Assembly: GCA_030630935.1 (NCBI GenBank)
Contig: DAOVMD010000096.1
Coordinates: 1 to 9,052 of the forward strand
DNA: 9,052 nt
Origin: Candidatus Mcinerneyibacteriota bacterium
Lineage (GTDB): Bacteria; AUK180; JAQVHJ01
Direction of reading: 5' to 3'
Made by a program: the position numbers and the translations under genes. The notes beneath the pieces are model-generated. The model ran no database searches. It was not told the origin of the DNA and worked only from the letters and a program-made list of their open reading frames with translations. Below, piece by piece: positions 843 to 8,956 of this stretch; the first letter of the stretch is position 1, and the number at the start of each line of letters is the position of its first letter.

Positions 843-2843
843 ATGGAAAAATCTAAAGTAAAAAAGAGTAAAGCGAAAAAGAGAAAAGAGAAGGGATGGT
901 TTTTTAAAGCCTTTGTTTTATTTGGGCTAATACTTATATTCCTAATTTACTTTGTAGAGATTAGAATTGAGAAGAAATATGGTTATATAGATGAAACGGG
1001 GAAGTTTGTTATTGAAGCCCAATTTGATTATGTTGGAGACTTTATTGAGGGATTTGCTGATGTTGAAATAAATAATAAATGTTTTTTTATAGATAGAACA
1101 GGACAACCTGTAGTAAATATCAAATGTGACTATTGTTTAAAAAAAGGTATATTCGGAACAAGAATAATATCTAAAAATGGTAAATATGGGTTGATAGATA
1201 AGAAGGGAAAAAGAATTTTAGAATCTATCTATGATGAAATAGAATCAATAGGAACTATTGAGCTTCCTTTAGGAGAATCTCCAATAGTATTATTGTGGAG
1301 AAATAATAAGATGGGTTTTTTTAATAGAAAAACCAATAAGCTTGTTAAATGTTCTTATAATTATGTAAGTGGACATTCTATGTATTGGAGTTATTCATCT
1401 ATAGCTGTTGAGAAAGATACTGGTTGGGGAATTATAGATTTTTCGGAAAAAGTTATTGTTCCATGCATTTATAATTCTGCAAGAGTTTTTAATGATGAAT
1501 ATTTTATTTGTTATCTGAAAGACAAATCAATAGTCTTTAATAAAAAGGGTGAGATTCAATTTTCATTTAAAGAAGCTAACATAGAATATGTTAAGGATGG
1601 GGTGTTTTTGCTAATTACCAACTGTTTAAAAGGTCATAAATTAGATGAGATTGGTAAGGAGGGGTGTAAATATGGCTTGATAGATAAAACTGGTAAGATT
1701 ATACTTGAACCCAAATATGACGATATTTCTTATTTTAATCAAAATGGAATAGCAAGAGTAAATATTGGTGGGACCTGGGATCCTTTTTCACTTCGTGGAG
1801 GACAATGGGGATTTATAAATAAAAAAGGAGAAGTCGTTCTTGAACCAAAATATGTTTATATTGGTTTTTTTAGTTCCGATGGTTATGCAAGAATTAATTT
1901 ATCCGGATTGGAAAGCAGAGATCGTATACATGGTGGTAAATGGGGAATCATAGATGAACATGGAAAAATAATAATCAACCCGATTTATGATAATATTGTG
2001 TTTTACTCTAAAAACGGTAATAAGAAGGATTATTATTGTAAAGGTTATGATAAAATCAATTATTTTTATAAAGGAATGATCTGGATTAAGAAAGGGGATA
2101 AATACGGTGTTATAAATAAGAAAGGTGATGTTATAATTCCGTTTAAATTCGATTCATTCAAATCATTTAATAAGAAGGGGATATCAGTAGTTGAGGTCAA
2201 TGGAAAATTTGGGTATATTGACGAGAAAGGGAAGTATATAATTAAACTATCTTATGATCACGCTGAAAATTTTGATGAGAATGGTTTTGCAATTGTTGGG
2301 TATAAAAAATCTAAAAAACCAGATGAATTTAAATTTGGTTTAATAAATAGAAAAGGAAAGTTTATTTTAAAACCAATATTTGATGATATCTTTTATAATG
2401 ACAGATATGGTTATGTACCAACCCGTAGGACAAGAGTAAAGGACTATAAATTTAAAAAGGTAGGTTTAGTTTCGAAAGATGGTAAATTAATTTTAAAAAC
2501 TAAATTTAATAGATTTCATTGTACACAAGGTGATTATTTATATGTTGAAAAAGGGTATAAAAAAGGAGTAATTAATAAAAACACAGGTGAAGTAATCGTT
2601 AAACCCAGCAGGAAATATATTTTTGTTCCAGTATTCGGATCTTTTGGTCGTAATTATACGCCGAGATTTAATGATGGTTTAATTCCCTTAGGTGTTTATA
2701 AAATTAAAATAAATGTACGTTATAGGTTTTTTGAAGGTAATCTTATTTTTGATTTACGAAAATATTTTGTTAAGTTAGTTGATGATTATCCTTTTAATCT
2801 TTATTGGGAACTTTATAGTAACACTCCTTTTTTCTTCAATTAA
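843..2843 (+). CDS. Membrane-anchored WG-repeat protein
   Basis: This 666-residue protein consists of a lysine-rich N-terminus (residues 2-17), one hydrophobic membrane segment (about 19-38), and then roughly 13 WG-type repeats. The repeats start with motifs of the form [WYF]-G-x-I-[DN]-x-x-G-K-x-[IV]-[IL], at about residues 46, 79, 115, 157, 195, 277, 322, 367, 421, 456, 498, 540 and 574. The motif is clearest at 277-290, 322-335 and 367-380. The positive N-terminus predicts that the repeat domain lies outside the cytoplasm. WG repeats form beta-sheet structures used for binding, and I know of no enzymatic activity for them. The tail after about residue 600 lacks the motif, although DGLIPLGVY (611-619) looks like the end of another repeat. 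Translation ends in tandem TAA TAA. The ribosome site is weak (GAAGAG). The gene stands alone, convergent with the ABC operon, between two identical 51-bp repeats, and looks more AT-rich than the operon. The family call is confident; the role is unknown. Confidence 0.85.
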   Translation: MEKSKVKKSKAKKRKEKGWFFKAFVLFGLILIFLIYFVEIRIEKKYGYIDETGKFVIEAQFDYVGDFIEGFADVEINNKCFFIDRTGQPVVNIKCDYCLKKGIFGTRIISKNGKYGLIDKKGKRILESIYDEIESIGTIELPLGESPIVLLWRNNKMGFFNRKTNKLVKCSYNYVSGHSMYWSYSSIAVEKDTGWGIIDFSEKVIVPCIYNSARVFNDEYFICYLKDKSIVFNKKGEIQFSFKEANIEYVKDGVFLLITNCLKGHKLDEIGKEGCKYGLIDKTGKIILEPKYDDISYFNQNGIARVNIGGTWDPFSLRGGQWGFINKKGEVVLEPKYVYIGFFSSDGYARINLSGLESRDRIHGGKWGIIDEHGKIIINPIYDNIVFYSKNGNKKDYYCKGYDKINYFYKGMIWIKKGDKYGVINKKGDVIIPFKFDSFKSFNKKGISVVEVNGKFGYIDEKGKYIIKLSYDHAENFDENGFAIVGYKKSKKPDEFKFGLINRKGKFILKPIFDDIFYNDRYGYVPTRRTRVKDYKFKKVGLVSKDGKLILKTKFNRFHCTQGDYLYVEKGYKKGVINKNTGEVIVKPSRKYIFVPVFGSFGRNYTPRFNDGLIPLGVYKIKINVRYRFFEGNLIFDLRKYFVKLVDDYPFNLYWELYSNTPFFFN

Positions 2844-3240: not shown

Positions 3241-4446
3241 TCAAATCTTCCTAAGCATTTCTGATGGTGTGAATTTCTTTGTTAACTTAGCCGGGATCAT
3301 TGAAGATAGTGCCGGTATGATAATAGAGAAGATAGCCGTCACCACAAAGAAGGAAAAGTTATATGGTGGATATATTATACTTTCAAATGGTATATCAGAA
3401 CCTTCCGCCGCAGCAGAGACATCGACACCTTTGTTATTAAGATAGATTAATATGAGTAGTCCTGCTAAACTCCCGAGAACCCCGCCGAATGCTCCGATTA
3501 TACTGCCTTCAATTGTGAAGTTTATAAACATATCCCTATCAGTCATCCCGATTGCTTTCAGGGTTCCGATCTCTCTTAATCTTTCAAAGACAGCTTTTAT
3601 CATTGTATTGATAACGACAAAAGAAGCAAGGAATATTATTATTGCAAATATAAAGTAAATAATTTTCTTTTCTATCTCAATAAATTCAATCAGTCCACCA
3701 AGCTGTTCTTTATAAGTTAAAGCAATAGTACCTTCCGGTAAAAACTCTTTTATCCTTTCCTGTACTATTTCGGAATCCTCATGTTGTTTTGTATAAATAT
3801 AAATTTCAGTAGTTCCGTTTCTAATCTTGAGTAATTTCTTTGCATTCTCCAGACTTATAAAGAAAACTTTTTTATCAAATGCCTTCATTCCTGTTGTAAT
3901 GATTGCAGTGACCGGAAGTTTTATTCCATTCAACCCGCCTTCGGAAGTTTTTGTTGCGAGCAGAAGCTCTTCACCCACATCAACCCCCAACTTCTGAGCT
4001 AAGTCTTTTCCGATTGCGATTCCATTGTTTTGGATATTTCCCTTAATTACTTTTTGTTTCAGGTTGAATGTTTTATTATCAAAATCAATTCCTATTCCCA
4101 AACCAAATACAGTTGTTTCATCTTTCCCGAGCATAATCCCGAACCTGATTCTCTCTTCAACATATTTGACTTCGCTATATCTTTCAATCCTCATTATTAT
4201 TTCGTCACTATTATTAATGATCTCATCTACCGGCAGGAATTTCTCACGGTTCTTATATTCTTCAGTAATGATTCTAACATTCCCTGACTGGTAATTAATC
4301 ATACCCGATGTAAGCATCTCAAATAATCCGAAGACCCAACCCTGAGCAAAGCAAACAATTAGAGCTGCAAAGAAAATTGACAGAGCTGTCAGGAAAGATC
4401 TTTTTTTATTTCTCATAACATTCCTGAATGCAAATTTAAATAACAT
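3241..4446 (-). CDS. ABC transporter permease, FtsX/MacB (LolC/E-like) type, second of pair
   Basis: This 401-residue inner-membrane permease has the type VII ABC layout. A transmembrane helix lies at about 17-37, followed by a large periplasmic domain (about 38-260). Three more helices follow at about 261-283, 310-336 and 364-384. The cytoplasmic coupling segment REIGTLKAIG lies at 291-300, just after helix 2, and the C-terminal end PAKLTKKFTPSEMLRKI is typical of the FtsX family. There is no fused ATPase domain, so it should pair with the upstream permease and the upstream ATPase as in LolC-LolD-LolE. Family members act as mechanotransmitters moving lipoproteins, peptides or drugs from the membrane or periplasm rather than through a channel. 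The AAGGAG site (4459-4454) is well placed for the ATG, 16 nt after the previous stop. It is the last gene of the operon. Its substrate is unknown. Confidence 0.88.
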   Translation of the reverse strand: MLFKFAFRNVMRNKKRSFLTALSIFFAALIVCFAQGWVFGLFEMLTSGMINYQSGNVRIITEEYKNREKFLPVDEIINNSDEIIMRIERYSEVKYVEERIRFGIMLGKDETTVFGLGIGIDFDNKTFNLKQKVIKGNIQNNGIAIGKDLAQKLGVDVGEELLLATKTSEGGLNGIKLPVTAIITTGMKAFDKKVFFISLENAKKLLKIRNGTTEIYIYTKQHEDSEIVQERIKEFLPEGTIALTYKEQLGGLIEFIEIEKKIIYFIFAIIIFLASFVVINTMIKAVFERLREIGTLKAIGMTDRDMFINFTIEGSIIGAFGGVLGSLAGLLILIYLNNKGVDVSAAAEGSDIPFESIIYPPYNFSFFVVTAIFSIIIPALSSMIPAKLTKKFTPSEMLRKI

Positions 4447-4462
4447 TATATCTCTCCTTATA

Positions 4463-5689
4463 TTATTGAATTGTTCTTAAACATTCAACCGGTTGTAGTT
4501 TAGTTGCTTGTTTTGCAGGATAATAACTTGCAGCAACACTCGCAATCACACAGATTATTATTGAATTTATCATTGGTTTGATGCTCCAGGTAGATTTTGC
4601 GATTCCGATTATTTTATAACCCATATTATCAGTACCAAAACCCTCCATCATTGTAGTCATGTCAATTCCATGTTCAACAAAATACCAATTGAGGATAATA
4701 CTTAAGATTATTCCGAATATACTTCCGAGAACACCTATGATTGCTCCTTCAAATATAAACATCTTCAAAATATCTCCGTCAGTAAAACCTAAAGCCTTCA
4801 TCGTTCCTATTTCACGTTTTTTTTCAAGAACCGACATAAGCATAGTATTAATAATTCCAACTAGTGCAATTATTATTATGAAGTAAACAAATATAAATGA
4901 AAACTTTTTCTTCATTTTAGAGATTGCAAGAAAATTCTGACTCATATCTATCCAGCTTTGTATCTTATAATCTGGAATTGACTTTTGAAGAGCAACTTTA
5001 TATTTTTTATATTTATCACGGTTATTCGTTTTTATTGCAATTTCAGTTACGCCTTCAGTGTTCAGGAATTCCTTTGCTTCGGAAAGGTTAATAAAGACTG
5101 TTGAGTTATTGGTTCCCGGGTCAGGAGAAAAGACAATCCCGGAGACTTCCATTTCAATTGAGTTAAACATGCCTTTTGCTTCACGGAATGTAATGTAAAT
5201 AAAGTCTCCAACCTTTACATCCATACTTGCTGCAAGTTTTTTCCCAATCATTGCACACCCGGGTTTTAAGCTGCCTTCTTCAATAAATTCAGGTAATATA
5301 AATACTTTTTTATCCTGTTCCTGGTCAATTCCTATAACCAGGCAAGGTGTTGAGTCAATTGAATTATCAAGTTCAGCCGGGAATTTTATCCTTGTAGTAT
5401 GTGACTCGATAAAATCTGTTCCTTCAAGAGCCGTGACAACTTCTTTATAATTATTCATGAAATTATCTTCTGAAAACGGTTTGTCTTCATCATACTTTTC
5501 ACTCTGGATCTTGAAATGACTGGTTTCAAAATTGATGACATTATCAAAAGACTGTTCATTTAAGCCGTCAATAAAACTATCCATCCAAATATAAAAAGCA
5601 ATGCCGAATGAGAGGATTAGAAATGTAAGGATAGTTCTTTTCTTATATCTAATTATGTTTTTTAACGATAACGAAAAAAGAAATTTCAT
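4463..5689 (-). CDS. ABC transporter permease, FtsX/MacB (LolC/E-like) type, first of pair
   Basis: This 408-residue permease has the same architecture as its downstream neighbour: a helix at about 19-37, a periplasmic domain to about 262, and helices at about 263-285, 310-336 and 373-391. The coupling motif KREIGTMKALGFT spans 291-303, and the C-terminus PAKQATKLQPVECLRTI is diagnostic of the family. The two permeases are clearly diverged from each other, suggesting a heterodimer like LolC/LolE. Both carry a short segment between helices 3 and 4, GIDMTTMMEG (341-350) here and GVDVSAAAEG (340-349) in the other, which may mark a subfamily. The site AAGGGAG (5703-5697) overlaps the stop codon of the ATPase gene, so translation is probably coupled. 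Function as part of an inner-membrane extraction complex is inferred from family and context. Confidence 0.88.
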   Translation of the reverse strand: MKFLFSLSLKNIIRYKKRTILTFLILSFGIAFYIWMDSFIDGLNEQSFDNVINFETSHFKIQSEKYDEDKPFSEDNFMNNYKEVVTALEGTDFIESHTTRIKFPAELDNSIDSTPCLVIGIDQEQDKKVFILPEFIEEGSLKPGCAMIGKKLAASMDVKVGDFIYITFREAKGMFNSIEMEVSGIVFSPDPGTNNSTVFINLSEAKEFLNTEGVTEIAIKTNNRDKYKKYKVALQKSIPDYKIQSWIDMSQNFLAISKMKKKFSFIFVYFIIIIALVGIINTMLMSVLEKKREIGTMKALGFTDGDILKMFIFEGAIIGVLGSIFGIILSIILNWYFVEHGIDMTTMMEGFGTDNMGYKIIGIAKSTWSIKPMINSIIICVIASVAASYYPAKQATKLQPVECLRTIQ

Positions 5690-5701
5690 TTTTAATCTCC
5701 C

Positions 5702-6373
5702 TTAGTTTATTACTCGACCATCTCTTAGTCTAATCACTCTTTTTGCATGTTTAAGTATGAGCTCGTCATGAGTCGAGAATATAAAAGTAACATTATCTTC
5801 ATCATTCATCCCCTTCATTAAATCGACGATTGTTTCTCCCGTCTCTAAATCCAGGTTCGCGGTTGGTTCATCCGCAAGTATCAGTTTTGGGTTTTTTACT
5901 AATGCCCTTGCAATCGAGACTCTTTGCTGCTGCCCACCGGAAAGTTCCAGGGGCTTCCTATTTTCAAGTCCTTCCAAACCAACCTTCTTTAATATCTGCA
6001 TTACCATATCTTTACTTTGGGACTTGGAGTATTGTTTCAAAATCCGTAATGGCAATTCAACATTTTCAAATGCTGTCAGGATAGGGATTAGGTTATAAGT
6101 TTGAAAAATAAATCCGAAATGCTCTCTTCTGTAAAAAGCAAGCTCGTCAGAATTCTTTTCTGTAAGTAATTCCCCATCAATAAAAACTTCTCCATTATCA
6201 GGCTTATCAATACACCCGATGATATTAAGTAGGGTAGTCTTTCCCGAACCTGAAGGTCCGGCTAATGCTGTGAATTCTCCCTTTGTAATATCCAGAGTGA
6301 TATCATGGAGTGCCTGGAACGGCACCTTCCCGGCATAGTATGTCTTATTGATATCTGTGACTTCTAAAAACAT
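5702..6373 (-). CDS. ABC transporter ATP-binding protein, LolD/MacB class
   Basis: This 223-residue cytoplasmic ATPase powers the two adjacent permeases. All the catalytic motifs are intact: Walker A GPSGSGKTT (39-47), Q-loop glutamine 91 in FIFQTYNLIP, signature LSGGQQQRVSIARAL (144-158), Walker B LILADEP (164-170), D-loop NLD (173-175) and switch histidine 202 in STHD. The N-terminal pattern, the length and the FQTYNLIP stretch are typical of the LolD/MacB/FtsE group. The gene begins after a perfect AGGAGGT ribosome site (6385-6379), 20 nt past the stop of the barrel gene, probably the strongest initiation signal in the operon. LolD, MacB and other antimicrobial-peptide exporters share these motifs, so the ATPase alone does not reveal the substrate. 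Confidence 0.95.
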   Translation of the reverse strand: MFLEVTDINKTYYAGKVPFQALHDITLDITKGEFTALAGPSGSGKTTLLNIIGCIDKPDNGEVFIDGELLTEKNSDELAFYRREHFGFIFQTYNLIPILTAFENVELPLRILKQYSKSQSKDMVMQILKKVGLEGLENRKPLELSGGQQQRVSIARALVKNPKLILADEPTANLDLETGETIVDLMKGMNDEDNVTFIFSTHDELILKHAKRVIRLRDGRVIN

Positions 6374-6393
6374 GAGTAACCTCCTGTTATGAT

Positions 6394-7470
6394 TTAAAAT
6401 TTATAATCAAGTCTTAATAATATTGAAAAATCTCCAAGTGTATCTTTTGAAAATTCATCCCCGTCCGTTCCGGTTGCAATTCCAATTTGCGCATTCAGAT
6501 ATAATTTATTGGAAATTGTATAATCAGCAAATGGAATGATTATGCTGCTCCCGTCAACTAAGTTAATGAAGTTATTGAGTCCAAAACTAAGGAATTCATC
6601 ATATATGATCATAAGACTATTAAACATATAGTTCTTTGCAATGAAGTACGTGTCATTTGGTATTGTGCTTGAATAATCATTTACATTGGAAGCACCAATC
6701 TCATTATAATAAAAACTTGCTGAAAATACAGCACTCTTATAACTGTAATCAAAGCCGAGTGTTGCCTCGTGGAACTTATCTACAAAATCATCATCGAAAT
6801 GATAACCCCAGGAACCATTTATACCTATCTCAATATCACCTTTAAAATAAACCCCTGTAATGTTAACATCTTTGTTTTTACGATTAAGAACTGCACCATA
6901 ATCAAAATTAAATTTATTATCGAATATACAAATCCCTGTTTGGCCTTCGGAGTCTCCGCTTAAATATGTTTTGATCCCGGACATCTCTCCGAGTGGGATA
7001 TCAAATACAAGACTGAAAATCCCAGCTTTATCATAAGAGAGGTCGGTCATGTTAACTTCCTTCTCCATTTCAAAAATATTCAGTGTTCCGGCATTGCCGA
7101 AGTTTATATAAGTCTTTCCAAAAGTCCAGGTGAATTCCGGTTTGTAAAATCTCCAGAACAATCGCATTAATTGTGGAGAGGGTAGTTGTGGAATATCTTC
7201 AAACTTAGTGAAAGTATCTCCAAAATCCCAATACCCCCTTAAGTCAAAATAGAATCTTAATTTATCCGTTTTTTGTCTCAGTATTAATCTTGTTTCTAAT
7301 AAATTCATGAATTGATAATTGTCTCCTACCTTGAATGCGATAAAGTCATCCCGTAATCTTCCTGTAAACCTTAGTGGGTAATGCTTTGGTTTCACCGATT
7401 CATCTTCTGCTCTTGACAGGATTGAAAAGAATAATAAAATAATTAGAATTGTAAAAAGTTTCTTTTCCAT
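6394..7470 (-). CDS. Predicted outer-membrane beta-barrel protein
   Basis: A 358-residue protein with a signal peptide (two lysines, hydrophobic 5-18, likely cleavage after SRA at residue 21). Alternating polar and hydrophobic segments rich in Tyr, Phe, Trp and Gly follow to the end (LDYKF), where the terminal phenylalanine matches the BAM recognition signature of outer-membrane barrels. I start it at 7470. The frame is open to an ATG at 7548, but that would add 26 non-signal-like residues and overlap the preceding gene by 74 nt, whereas AGGT (7480-7477) is placed for 7470, four nt after the upstream stop. The overall look recalls DUF1302-type or transport-associated porin-like proteins, but I do not recognise a precise family. 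Its place between a periplasmic carrier and an ABC exporter suggests that it receives or exports the transported molecule at the outer membrane. Confidence 0.75.
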   Translation of the reverse strand: MEKKLFTILIILLFFSILSRAEDESVKPKHYPLRFTGRLRDDFIAFKVGDNYQFMNLLETRLILRQKTDKLRFYFDLRGYWDFGDTFTKFEDIPQLPSPQLMRLFWRFYKPEFTWTFGKTYINFGNAGTLNIFEMEKEVNMTDLSYDKAGIFSLVFDIPLGEMSGIKTYLSGDSEGQTGICIFDNKFNFDYGAVLNRKNKDVNITGVYFKGDIEIGINGSWGYHFDDDFVDKFHEATLGFDYSYKSAVFSASFYYNEIGASNVNDYSSTIPNDTYFIAKNYMFNSLMIIYDEFLSFGLNNFINLVDGSSIIIPFADYTISNKLYLNAQIGIATGTDGDEFSKDTLGDFSILLRLDYKF

Positions 7471-7474
7471 TCGC

Positions 7475-8221
7475 TTACCTGAATAAATTTTGTTTTGTGA
7501 AAGTATCTTTGGGAATTTCAACATTAAACTTAATCTCAGTTGTCTCAACTGTAGTTAGTGTGTCCTTCTTCCGCATATCCTGAATTGTGATTTTCATTGG
7601 GTAATGTTTTTCACCATGCTTTTGAATATTAAAATACTCAATTCTCTTTAATAATCGTCCACTCTTGGCGAATAAGTCCATCTTGAGAATTATAAATTTC
7701 TCTTTATCAACCAATAGCTCTTCCTTATAATAAGTTACATCGTCAACCTTAGCGATCAATCTGATCTTATAACATTCGGAATCCCGATATGTTTCTTCAC
7801 CAAGTAGTTCAGTTGAATATTTCTCTTTCAACTTATCAAGGTCCATCATATCTTCATACGAAATGTCACTTCCCATCATCCCCTGCCTGAGCATGTGACC
7901 GGATATCTTCATAACATCATCAGCATCAGGAAAGTAAATCCAGAGCTCACCCTCAATCTTTAAATACTTTACTCCAAGGTCTTCAGAGTTAGTGAACTCA
8001 AGGATAAACTTTTCATCTTGCTCCTGACCATAACCCTGATATTCCTTTTTCAAAAGCTTCTTACCTTTCTTAATCGACATCTTTGCCTTGAATTGCTGAG
8101 TGCTGGAAACCATGTTGTCGTCAACTTTATCAATGATCTCGTCTGCGGTAAGAGAAAATGCCTGAAGAAATAAAATTGAAATAATGAAACCTATAGATAA
8201 CAATTTTGAAAATGATTTCAT
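7475..8221 (-). CDS. LolA-like outer-membrane lipoprotein-sorting protein
   Basis: This is a 248-residue periplasmic protein. Residues 1-26 are a signal peptide (MKSFSKLL then a hydrophobic core, probable cleavage after LTA). The mature part has the strand-rich pattern of the LolA-like fold. It includes LWIYFPDADDVMKISG and a MMGSDISYEDMM segment that I recognise as characteristic of the outer-membrane lipoprotein-sorting family (LolA_like, related to LolA/LolB). Such proteins hold a lipid or acyl chain in a hydrophobic cup and shuttle it through the periplasm. Here the partner permeases are encoded two genes downstream, mirroring the LolA-LolCDE relationship. The ribosome site AAGGAG (8234-8229) lies inside the last codons of tetR and the gap is 2 nt, so translation is probably coupled. 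It is not obviously the housekeeping LolA; its ligand may be a lipoprotein or another amphiphile. Confidence 0.82.
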   Translation of the reverse strand: MKSFSKLLSIGFIISILFLQAFSLTADEIIDKVDDNMVSSTQQFKAKMSIKKGKKLLKKEYQGYGQEQDEKFILEFTNSEDLGVKYLKIEGELWIYFPDADDVMKISGHMLRQGMMGSDISYEDMMDLDKLKEKYSTELLGEETYRDSECYKIRLIAKVDDVTYYKEELLVDKEKFIILKMDLFAKSGRLLKRIEYFNIQKHGEKHYPMKITIQDMRKKDTLTTVETTEIKFNVEIPKDTFTKQNLFR

Positions 8222-8223
8222 AA

Positions 8224-8877
8224 TTAAACTCCTTGTTTTTTATATATTCCGCTTCTTAAAATCTCTTTAAGGATCTTAAATTTCTCTTTATAAACTTTTC
8301 TTAAATCCTTAATGTCAAGATCACTTTGCGTCATCTGTGAATGAATAGATAACTTAATCCCGCTTATAATCCAGTATAGGGCCGGAAGAAATTCTTCCTT
8401 CGAAAATCGTAGGTTTTCTGTATTAATATCACTATAGAAATTTAAAAATAAATTCATGCCCTGACTATCTTTTTGATTGAATTTACTCATAACCTTTTGA
8501 AGTATTTCCTGGTTATCCCTGGAAGTGATACTTATCATAAACCTGTAAAGATCTGGGTTCTTCTCATAAAAGTCAAACCCGAAATCAAGGATGCTGTCTA
8601 TCCTGTCTATTATATCTTTCGGTAAACTTGTCTTATTTAATTCCGATGTGAGTTTTATCATGACTTCGTGAAGGATATAGTAAAAAAGATTTTCCTTACT
8701 TGTGAAATATTTAAATAGACTACCTTTGGAAATCCTGGCTCTCTTTACAATCCTGTTAGTCGAAGCATTCTTAAAACCATACTCTGAAAATTCCTGCATC
8801 GCAATCCTGATGATTCGATTTCGCTTACTTTTCTTTAACCTTTGAAATGTCTCTGTTTCAAATTTTTGCTGTTTCAT
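8224..8877 (-). CDS. TetR-family transcriptional regulator
   Basis: A 217-residue repressor. The N-terminal DNA-binding domain (about 17-65) carries the family pattern: AMQEFSEYGFKNAST, then the helix-turn-helix IVKRARISKGSLFKYF (43-58) and the following FTSKENLF. The rest is a helical ligand-binding and dimerisation domain typical in length but not in recognisable sequence, so the inducer cannot be named. It starts after AAAGGAGAA (8889-8881). It is the first gene of the six-gene operon, directly downstream of a strong promoter and two palindromes of the TGACC-N4-GGTCA form. Autorepression controlling the whole transport operon is therefore the natural reading. Confidence 0.92.
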   Translation of the reverse strand: MKQQKFETETFQRLKKSKRNRIIRIAMQEFSEYGFKNASTNRIVKRARISKGSLFKYFTSKENLFYYILHEVMIKLTSELNKTSLPKDIIDRIDSILDFGFDFYEKNPDLYRFMISITSRDNQEILQKVMSKFNQKDSQGMNLFLNFYSDINTENLRFSKEEFLPALYWIISGIKLSIHSQMTQSDLDIKDLRKVYKEKFKILKEILRSGIYKKQGV

Positions 8878-8890
8878 CTATTCTCCTTTC

Positions 8891-8904
8891 TGACCACTCG
8901 GTCA
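8891..8904. promoter_or_regulatory. Probable TetR operator 1
   Basis: The palindrome TGACC-ACTC-GGTCA lies in the leader between the promoter and the tetR start codon, close to the ribosome site. It is 18 bp (start to start) from a near-identical site, which would put two repressor dimers on related faces of the helix. Assignment to the adjacent TetR protein is inferred from position and symmetry. Confidence 0.7.
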
Positions 8905-8908
8905 CTAA

Positions 8909-8922
8909 TGACCACTTGGTCA
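8909..8922. promoter_or_regulatory. Probable TetR operator 2
   Basis: The palindrome TGACCA-CT-TGGTCA is perfect over six bases per half. It overlaps the predicted transcription start (about 8921) and directly abuts the -10 region, a position where bound repressor would block polymerase. It differs from operator 1 at a single base in the central region. Confidence 0.75.
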
Positions 8923-8927
8923 CTTAT

Positions 8928-8956
8928 AGTATAGCATAAAAATCACAAAAAGTCAA
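8928..8956 (-). promoter_or_regulatory. Promoter of the tetR-ABC transport operon
   Basis: Reading on the minus strand, TTGACT (8956-8951) is followed after exactly 17 nt by TATACT (8933-8928), preceded by TGC, which makes an extended -10. Five of six bases match consensus in both boxes, so this should be a strong promoter when unrepressed. The start site would fall near 8921, inside operator 2. Confidence 0.78.

Follow-up and report, generated by a model that had tools for sequence, protein, structure and literature searches.

It has long been an open question how lipids and other hydrophobic products of diderm bacteria cross both the periplasm and the outer membrane. The question is raised by a six-gene operon on a 9,052-nt contig (DAOVMD010000096.1, assembly GCA_030630935.1) from a Candidatus Mcinerneyibacteriota bacterium; this whole stretch is referred to here as the window. 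The operon encodes a TetR-family regulator, a LolA-like periplasmic carrier, a predicted outer-membrane beta-barrel, an ATP-binding cassette (ABC) ATPase of the LolD/MacB type, and two FtsX/MacB_PCD permeases, FtsX-1 and FtsX-2 (Table 1). Do these genes make up a single transport route and, if so, for what kind of molecule? The operon probably encodes a single export route across the envelope, dedicated to a small molecule that is hydrophobic or amphiphilic, be it a lipid, a lipid-like product, or a toxic hydrophobe, and is best read as an ABC counterpart of resistance-nodulation-division (RND) systems, of which AmeABCD is an example. The source assembly is a draft of 3.16 Mb in 471 contigs, 80% complete, and the window is its contig 281; the lineage is small, in that only six of the 20 nearest genomes belong to the same class or family as the source genome.

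The six genes run head to tail on the minus strand from 8877 to 3241. The gaps between them measure 2, 4, 20, 12, and 16 nt, in agreement with the 2 to 20 nt stated in the initial annotation, whose gene content, order, and positions are likewise upheld by Pfam matches and, for the barrel, by structure prediction. A GGAG-type ribosome site is clear at most gene starts, while the barrel gene has a weaker site (AGGTAAGCGAATG), which overlaps the stop of the lolA-like gene.

The carrier has an N-terminal signal helix, contains no lipobox cysteine, and is predicted to adopt the LolA fold (mean predicted local distance difference test, pLDDT, 82.3). Its best fold match is the DUF1329 protein 4z48 (Z 26.8 over 221 residues, root-mean-square deviation 2.1), and P. 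gingivalis LolA3 (9tp6) gives Z 26.0. Structures of the PF17131 type score Z 22 to 27, as compared with Z 10 to 12 for canonical LolA structures. The carrier also weakly matches the MucB/RseB sensor fold (32 bits; Z about 9 to 10).

The barrel gene starts at an internal ATG at 7470, within a longer TTG-start open reading frame (ORF) from 7548. No Pfam or NCBIfam family matched its product, and none matched its 18 relatives in Pfam. A model built from an alignment of these 18 relatives (pLDDT 84.9) has 18 strands, in agreement with the barrel assignment made at the outset. Over approximately 290 residues it matches Wzi (2ynk, Z 21.5), the BenF-like structure 3jty (Z 21.5), OccK2 (Z 21.2), and AlgE (Z 20.5). 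Foldseek ranked trimeric porins first and VIA-align ranked Wzi, OprD/Occ, and AlgE first; we take these comparisons to predict a large outer-membrane barrel and not a function. The protein has a signal helix and ends in phenylalanine (...DYKF). Searched against PDB sequences, the barrel profile gave no match, and the barrel claim therefore rests on prediction and fold comparison, by which the product of 6394-7470 is predicted with confidence to be an OprD/AlgE/Wzi-like outer-membrane barrel. None of the 18 relatives matched an Omp85 family, and the model of the 358-aa protein contains no separate periplasmic domain.

What ties the carrier to the barrel is their recurrence together beside two kinds of inner-membrane engine. 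The source genome has four PF17131 carriers, of which those in the window and on contig C310 are partnered by an ABC engine and those on contigs C355 and C247 by an MMPL/RND pump. All four adjoin a barrel, which in one of the two RND sets is a DUF1302 barrel. Both RND sets comprise TetR, the MMPL pump, LolA_like, and the barrel, so that the association of LolA-like and barrel proteins with RND/MMPL pumps, described for other bacteria in the initial annotation, is found within this very genome. At L013:3311-11957, one RND set of the source genome is joined with TetR, an alpha/beta hydrolase, a GNAT acetyltransferase-like protein, and a radical SAM/SPASM enzyme, gene company that is suggestive of a made lipid-like product.

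In 45 of 55 neighbourhoods a recognised barrel lies beside the carrier, and the engine in most is ABC or RND; the ABC share among these neighbourhoods is inflated, since many of them were selected for their resemblance to the carrier, and the sample includes a few duplicates. To remove carrier-based selection, 290 genomes were searched by barrel profile alone. The profile matched in 33 of them, and the 27 loci examined, all outside the genomes already known for the set, comprise 26 free-standing barrel genes and one RND-barrel fusion. A LolA_like gene adjoins 22 of the 26 free-standing barrels, a linkage far beyond chance. The engine at the 26 loci is ABC in 13 cases and RND in seven. Of the four barrels with no carrier in view, two begin at a contig end, one has ABC genes alone, and one has neither.

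Fusions provide a further line of evidence. RND-LolA fusion ORFs occur in two unrelated genomes (1195 aa, with both Pfam domains, and 1154 aa), the RND-barrel fusion ORF is 1294 aa long, and a signal-peptide-like stretch is kept at the joint in each of the three. The fusions come from draft assemblies, in which errors are possible; together, the RND-LolA and RND-barrel fusions support a working partnership. The barrels of the ABC sets and of the RND sets are, as judged from sequence profiles, remote kin. The window barrel aligns with a DUF1302 protein of the same genome over nearly its full length (profile alignment, E 2e-4, probability 44.5) and has a motif in common with it; none of the 18 barrel family members matches Pfam DUF1302, and the motif G[KR]...G...NP is common to barrels of both kinds of set. 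Run on 441 length-matched ORFs, the barrel profile retrieved LolA_like neighbours down to about E 0.7, the first clear outsider appearing at E 0.85. In a quick, unrooted carrier tree, ABC-partnered and RND-partnered carriers are split with a single change. We are inclined to see in these sets a widespread, undescribed class of exporters. Its portable core would be a LolA-like carrier paired with a barrel of its own, driven by one of two unrelated engines, an ABC heterodimer or an RND pump, and the ABC class would carry specialised lipids or amphiphiles to the cell surface with no need of LolB, TolC, or an adaptor.

The engine of the window operon resembles the Lol transporter and stands apart from it. 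The best NCBIfam match of the ATPase is LolD (TIGR02211), full length at 224.2 bits and below the cut-off of 307.75, and on the LolC/E model TIGR02212 (cut-off 362.45) FtsX-1 and FtsX-2 reach 163 and 110.7 bits. Both permeases have an FtsX core (PF02687) and a MacB-like periplasmic domain (PF12704) above cut-off, which are features of type VII ABC transporters. In a tree of 57 permeases (a quick tree, with supports computed without bootstrap), FtsX-1 and FtsX-2 each form a clade that spans phyla (support 99 and 95), and ten housekeeping LolCE rows form one separate group (support 100). FtsX-1 and FtsX-2 thus make up a two-gene permease that is old, conserved, and distinct from LolCE. The initial annotation had distinguished the operon from canonical Lol, and a housekeeping set indeed exists in the same assembly, with a LolCE gene followed by LolD on contig C315 and a PF03548 lolA directly after ftsK on contig C171. 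The C315 LolCE scores 348 bits, also just below the TIGR02212 cut-off, and the C315 LolD, truncated to 177 aa by a contig end, already scores 218.7 bits on TIGR02211. A LolCE-like gene scoring well above the permeases of the set is present in 12 of 13 other set-bearing genomes; the exception, G021, is apparently the same draft as G001 (72% complete). Assignment to a defence system was rejected, as PADLOC gave LolE-like and generic ATPase matches alone.

The gene set, first noted in this one contig, was found in many genomes across phyla. Within the class, the LolA-barrel-LolD-FtsX order is kept in G001, G002, G003, and G004, several of these loci being cut by contig ends, and G006 keeps LolA-barrel-LolD with FtsX pairs on other contigs. 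G002 and G003 have a doubled FtsX-1/FtsX-2 pair, with TetR at the far end. The doubling, at L017:10709-16070 and L053:11956-17520 in two relatives, leaves one ATPase, carrier, and barrel for four permeases. Searched with the carrier alignment, named genomes yielded 18 loci in Spirochaetota (including a Turneriella parva metagenome-assembled genome), FCPU426, Firestonebacteria, Cloacimonadota, and other bacteria; a scan of genome contigs with the lone barrel sequence returned no match. Nearly all uncut loci among the 18 have genes for the carrier, barrel, LolD, and both FtsX-1 and FtsX-2; L056, which is the G006 locus, is the one that departs from this. In the Cloacimonadota loci all parts are present in a different order. 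Persicobacter psychrovividus (Bacteroidota), a species of which a strain is in culture, has, in this order, a barrel-sized gene, LolD, two FtsX genes, and a 41%-identical LolA carrier. Genes for 23S rRNA intervening-sequence proteins lie between operon genes at L017:10236-10595 and 11977-12336, L018:6652-7011, and L033:8369-8728, such that the L017 operon has two insertions; PF05635 was confirmed on the first of these genes, and the other three are look-alikes.

Upstream of the operon, two 14-bp palindromes lie 18 bp apart between the -10 box of the predicted promoter and the TetR start. TTGACA/TTGACT...TATACT/TATAAT elements occur at the equivalent place in L015, L016, L017, and L018. There is strong evidence that the operon is dedicated and would be self-regulated, because the exact operator motif TGACCNNNTGGTCA is unique to the operon promoter in the 3.16 Mb assembly, and is found in 0 shuffles of the window, and because the motif is conserved before the operon in the same four relatives. 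The nearest relative has the same palindrome pair in the same place and a 56%-identical TetR. In G002, G003, and G004 a single operator copy lies just past the -10 box, before the carrier gene, and TetR is not upstream. Elsewhere in the genome, sites with one mismatch were rejected as a regulon, their count (22) being close to that of a reversed control pattern (17). A literature search found no published TetR operator that matches the motif. The closest solved chains to the regulator are TetR-family proteins of unstated function, and a FadR-type identity was rejected, a score of 44 bits against a cut-off of 200 being too weak to name a ligand. In the nearest relative, an element of approximately 310 bp with inverted-repeat ends (GGTGCCGGCCCATGACATATGACATG) lies before the operon promoter (L015:7079-7390).

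We infer from these observations a single machine that works outward. The LolA-like carrier would be loaded with the substrate by the ATPase and its two permeases, shield it across the periplasm, and deliver it to the partner barrel, which would insert or release it at the outer membrane. TetR would repress the operon from the tandem operator over the transcription start, and would release it on sensing the substrate or a related compound.

By analogy, the substrate is more likely to be a small amphiphile or lipid than a lipoprotein, because lipoproteins have the separate housekeeping Lol set and because of the company kept by related parts, namely AmeABCD, an RND cousin from Castellaniella defragrans that confers monoterpene tolerance (PMC6394551); the LolA-like ApeL, which is proposed, with RND ApeM and LolB-like ApeN, for aryl polyene lipid transport (PMC8253772); LolA2/LolB2 in flexirubin loci (PMC11885536); and biosynthetic clusters on plasmids. 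The plasmid sets, in E. coli G8 (L114:79-8516) and Rahnella sikkimica (L117:1-8871), combine ABC genes, LolA, and a barrel candidate, and both lie inside fatty-acid/polyketide-type clusters with acyl carrier protein, ketosynthase, dehydratase, and malonyltransferase genes. We take this gene content to be reminiscent of the streptococcal cyl genes for a polyene lipid.

Several points weigh against export of a small hydrophobic molecule under TetR control. The barrel candidates of the plasmid sets are weak on the barrel profile (E 0.005 in E. coli, E 0.0002 in Rahnella), and no biosynthetic or substrate gene adjoins the window operon. OprD-like barrels also import or act as plain pores, so that the fold is compatible with either direction. 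TetR is absent or placed elsewhere in many relatives; TetR control is therefore a local feature, although in the window operon the control proposed initially is supported by the tandem operator over the predicted transcription start.

The nearest published kind of system is the RND-LolA-DUF1302 cassette. AmeABCD-type HAE3 RND exporters likewise place a LolA-superfamily periplasmic protein, a barrel, and an energised inner-membrane pump in one cassette, and the carrier is of the LolA superfamily and DUF1329-like in both, as the fold match to 4z48 indicates. They differ in that the window engine consists of an ATPase and two FtsX permeases with no RND gene in the operon, in that the window barrel falls below Pfam DUF1302 detection, and in that the window operon has no YCF48-like AmeC partner. 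The nearest system with an ABC engine is Borrelia BBJ23-29, which was proposed in 2026 to move a non-polar ligand outward and also has a LolD/MacB-like ABC transporter, a LolA-like carrier, and a barrel in one cluster (PMC13078400). The Borrelia barrel, however, is of the Omp85 type, a single gene encodes a homodimeric permease, and there are two extra TPR proteins; no Borrelia record is among the plasmid matches listed for the window carrier. ApeL/ApeM/ApeN share with the window a LolA-like carrier and an energised pump in proposed outer-membrane lipid transport (PMC8253772), but use an RND pump and a LolB-like acceptor and have no barrel. MacAB-TolC shares the FtsX/MacB_PCD permease architecture, whereas the window operon has no MacA adaptor or TolC-type duct and encodes its ATPase as a separate chain; the source genome has a MacB-like ATPase-permease cluster at another place. 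Canonical LolABCDE shares the ATPase, two FtsX-type permeases, and a LolA-fold carrier; the window proteins differ in scoring far under the LolCE and LolD cut-offs, in the separate permease clades, in having a barrel instead of LolB and a dedicated TetR, and in coexisting with a canonical set. In open-access full-text literature, a search of limited scope, we found no prior description of an ABC engine combined with a LolA-like carrier and an OprD-like barrel.

Could the operon instead be a specialised second lipoprotein pathway, along the lines proposed for Borrelia BBJ23-29? The ABC transporter and carrier would then extract certain lipoproteins, which the barrel would insert or flip to the cell surface. 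LolCE and LolD are the nearest NCBIfam models for the permeases and the ATPase, the carrier has the LolA fold, and the Borrelia proposal (PMC13078400) offers a parallel. We nevertheless consider this pathway doubtful, given the separate housekeeping lolA, lolCE, and lolD, permease clades apart from LolCE, the dedicated TetR control, and the lack of a linked lipoprotein cargo gene; the relatives of the carrier that work with RND engines are, moreover, tied to small hydrophobes (PMC6394551, PMC8253772).

Two further explanations bear on direction and on assembly. One is a retrograde importer: a hydrophobic nutrient would enter through the OprD-like barrel and travel with the carrier to the inner membrane, where the ABC transporter would use ATP to receive it. 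This reading draws on the OprD/Occ uptake channels among the top structural matches; it appears very improbable, as no catabolic genes adjoin the operon, the exchangeable RND engine works outward in characterised cases, and so do the characterised type VII (MacB/LolCDE) ABC transporters. Alternatively, the products might be no single machine but an ABC extractor, an RseB-like periplasmic lipid sensor, and an unrelated porin brought together in one stress-induced operon. Operon membership alone is no proof of a complex, and the weak MucB/RseB fold match of the carrier would suit a sensor, but we give scarcely any credence to separate parts in view of the fusion ORFs and of a carrier-barrel linkage that, at 22 of the 26 unselected loci, spans several gene orders and two unrelated engines.

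Table 1. Features of the window operon and its upstream region, with fusion ORFs from other loci.
Feature	Position	Strand	Evidence
TetR-family regulator, 217 aa	8224..8877	-	PF00440 (TetR_N) 51.5 bits
LolA-like periplasmic carrier, 248 aa	7475..8221	-	PF17131 (LolA_like) 164 bits
Predicted outer-membrane beta-barrel, 358 aa including signal peptide	6394..7470	-	predicted structure, no family match
LolD/MacB-type ATPase, 223 aa	5702..6373	-	ABC_tran 124.8 bits
FtsX-1, FtsX/MacB_PCD permease 1, 408 aa	4463..5689	-	PF02687 81.3, PF12704 41.7 bits
FtsX-2, FtsX/MacB_PCD permease 2, 401 aa	3241..4446	-	PF02687 67.5, PF12704 39.1 bits
Predicted sigma-70-type promoter, TTGACT, 17 nt, TATACT	8928..8956	-	10/12 consensus bases, TG before -10
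Putative operator palindrome 1, TGACCAAGTGGTCA	8909..8922	-	motif conserved before operon in relatives
Putative operator palindrome 2, TGACCGAGTGGTCA, 18 bp from palindrome 1	8891..8904	-	motif conserved before operon in relatives
Fusion ORFs	L075:5967-9554, L168:6966-10430, L166:3236-7120	-, -, +	two RND-LolA, one RND-barrel

The convergent neighbour of the operon (window 843-2843, plus strand) encodes a 666-aa WG-repeat protein (PF14903, 259 bits) that has a membrane segment at its N-terminal end. Two matches to the Acido-Lenti-1 RNA (RF01687) lie at 228-273 on the minus strand (43.7 bits) and 496-541 on the plus strand (43.3 bits). They are inverted, approximately 220 bp apart, and flank the start of a 71-codon ORF; the pair might mark the two ends of a small element that is mobile or palindromic.

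A self-contained cassette with an outer-membrane end point, a carrier, an engine, and a sensor makes the proposed route testable in one deletion or reconstitution, and cultured strains exist for the purpose, as related sets occur in Vibrio, in Persicobacter, and on enterobacterial plasmids. The finding may also aid annotation, as many genes labelled for outer membrane lipoprotein sorting are probably not lipoprotein sorters. That the same carrier-barrel pair occurs with an ABC engine in some sets and an RND engine in others points to a general design rule.

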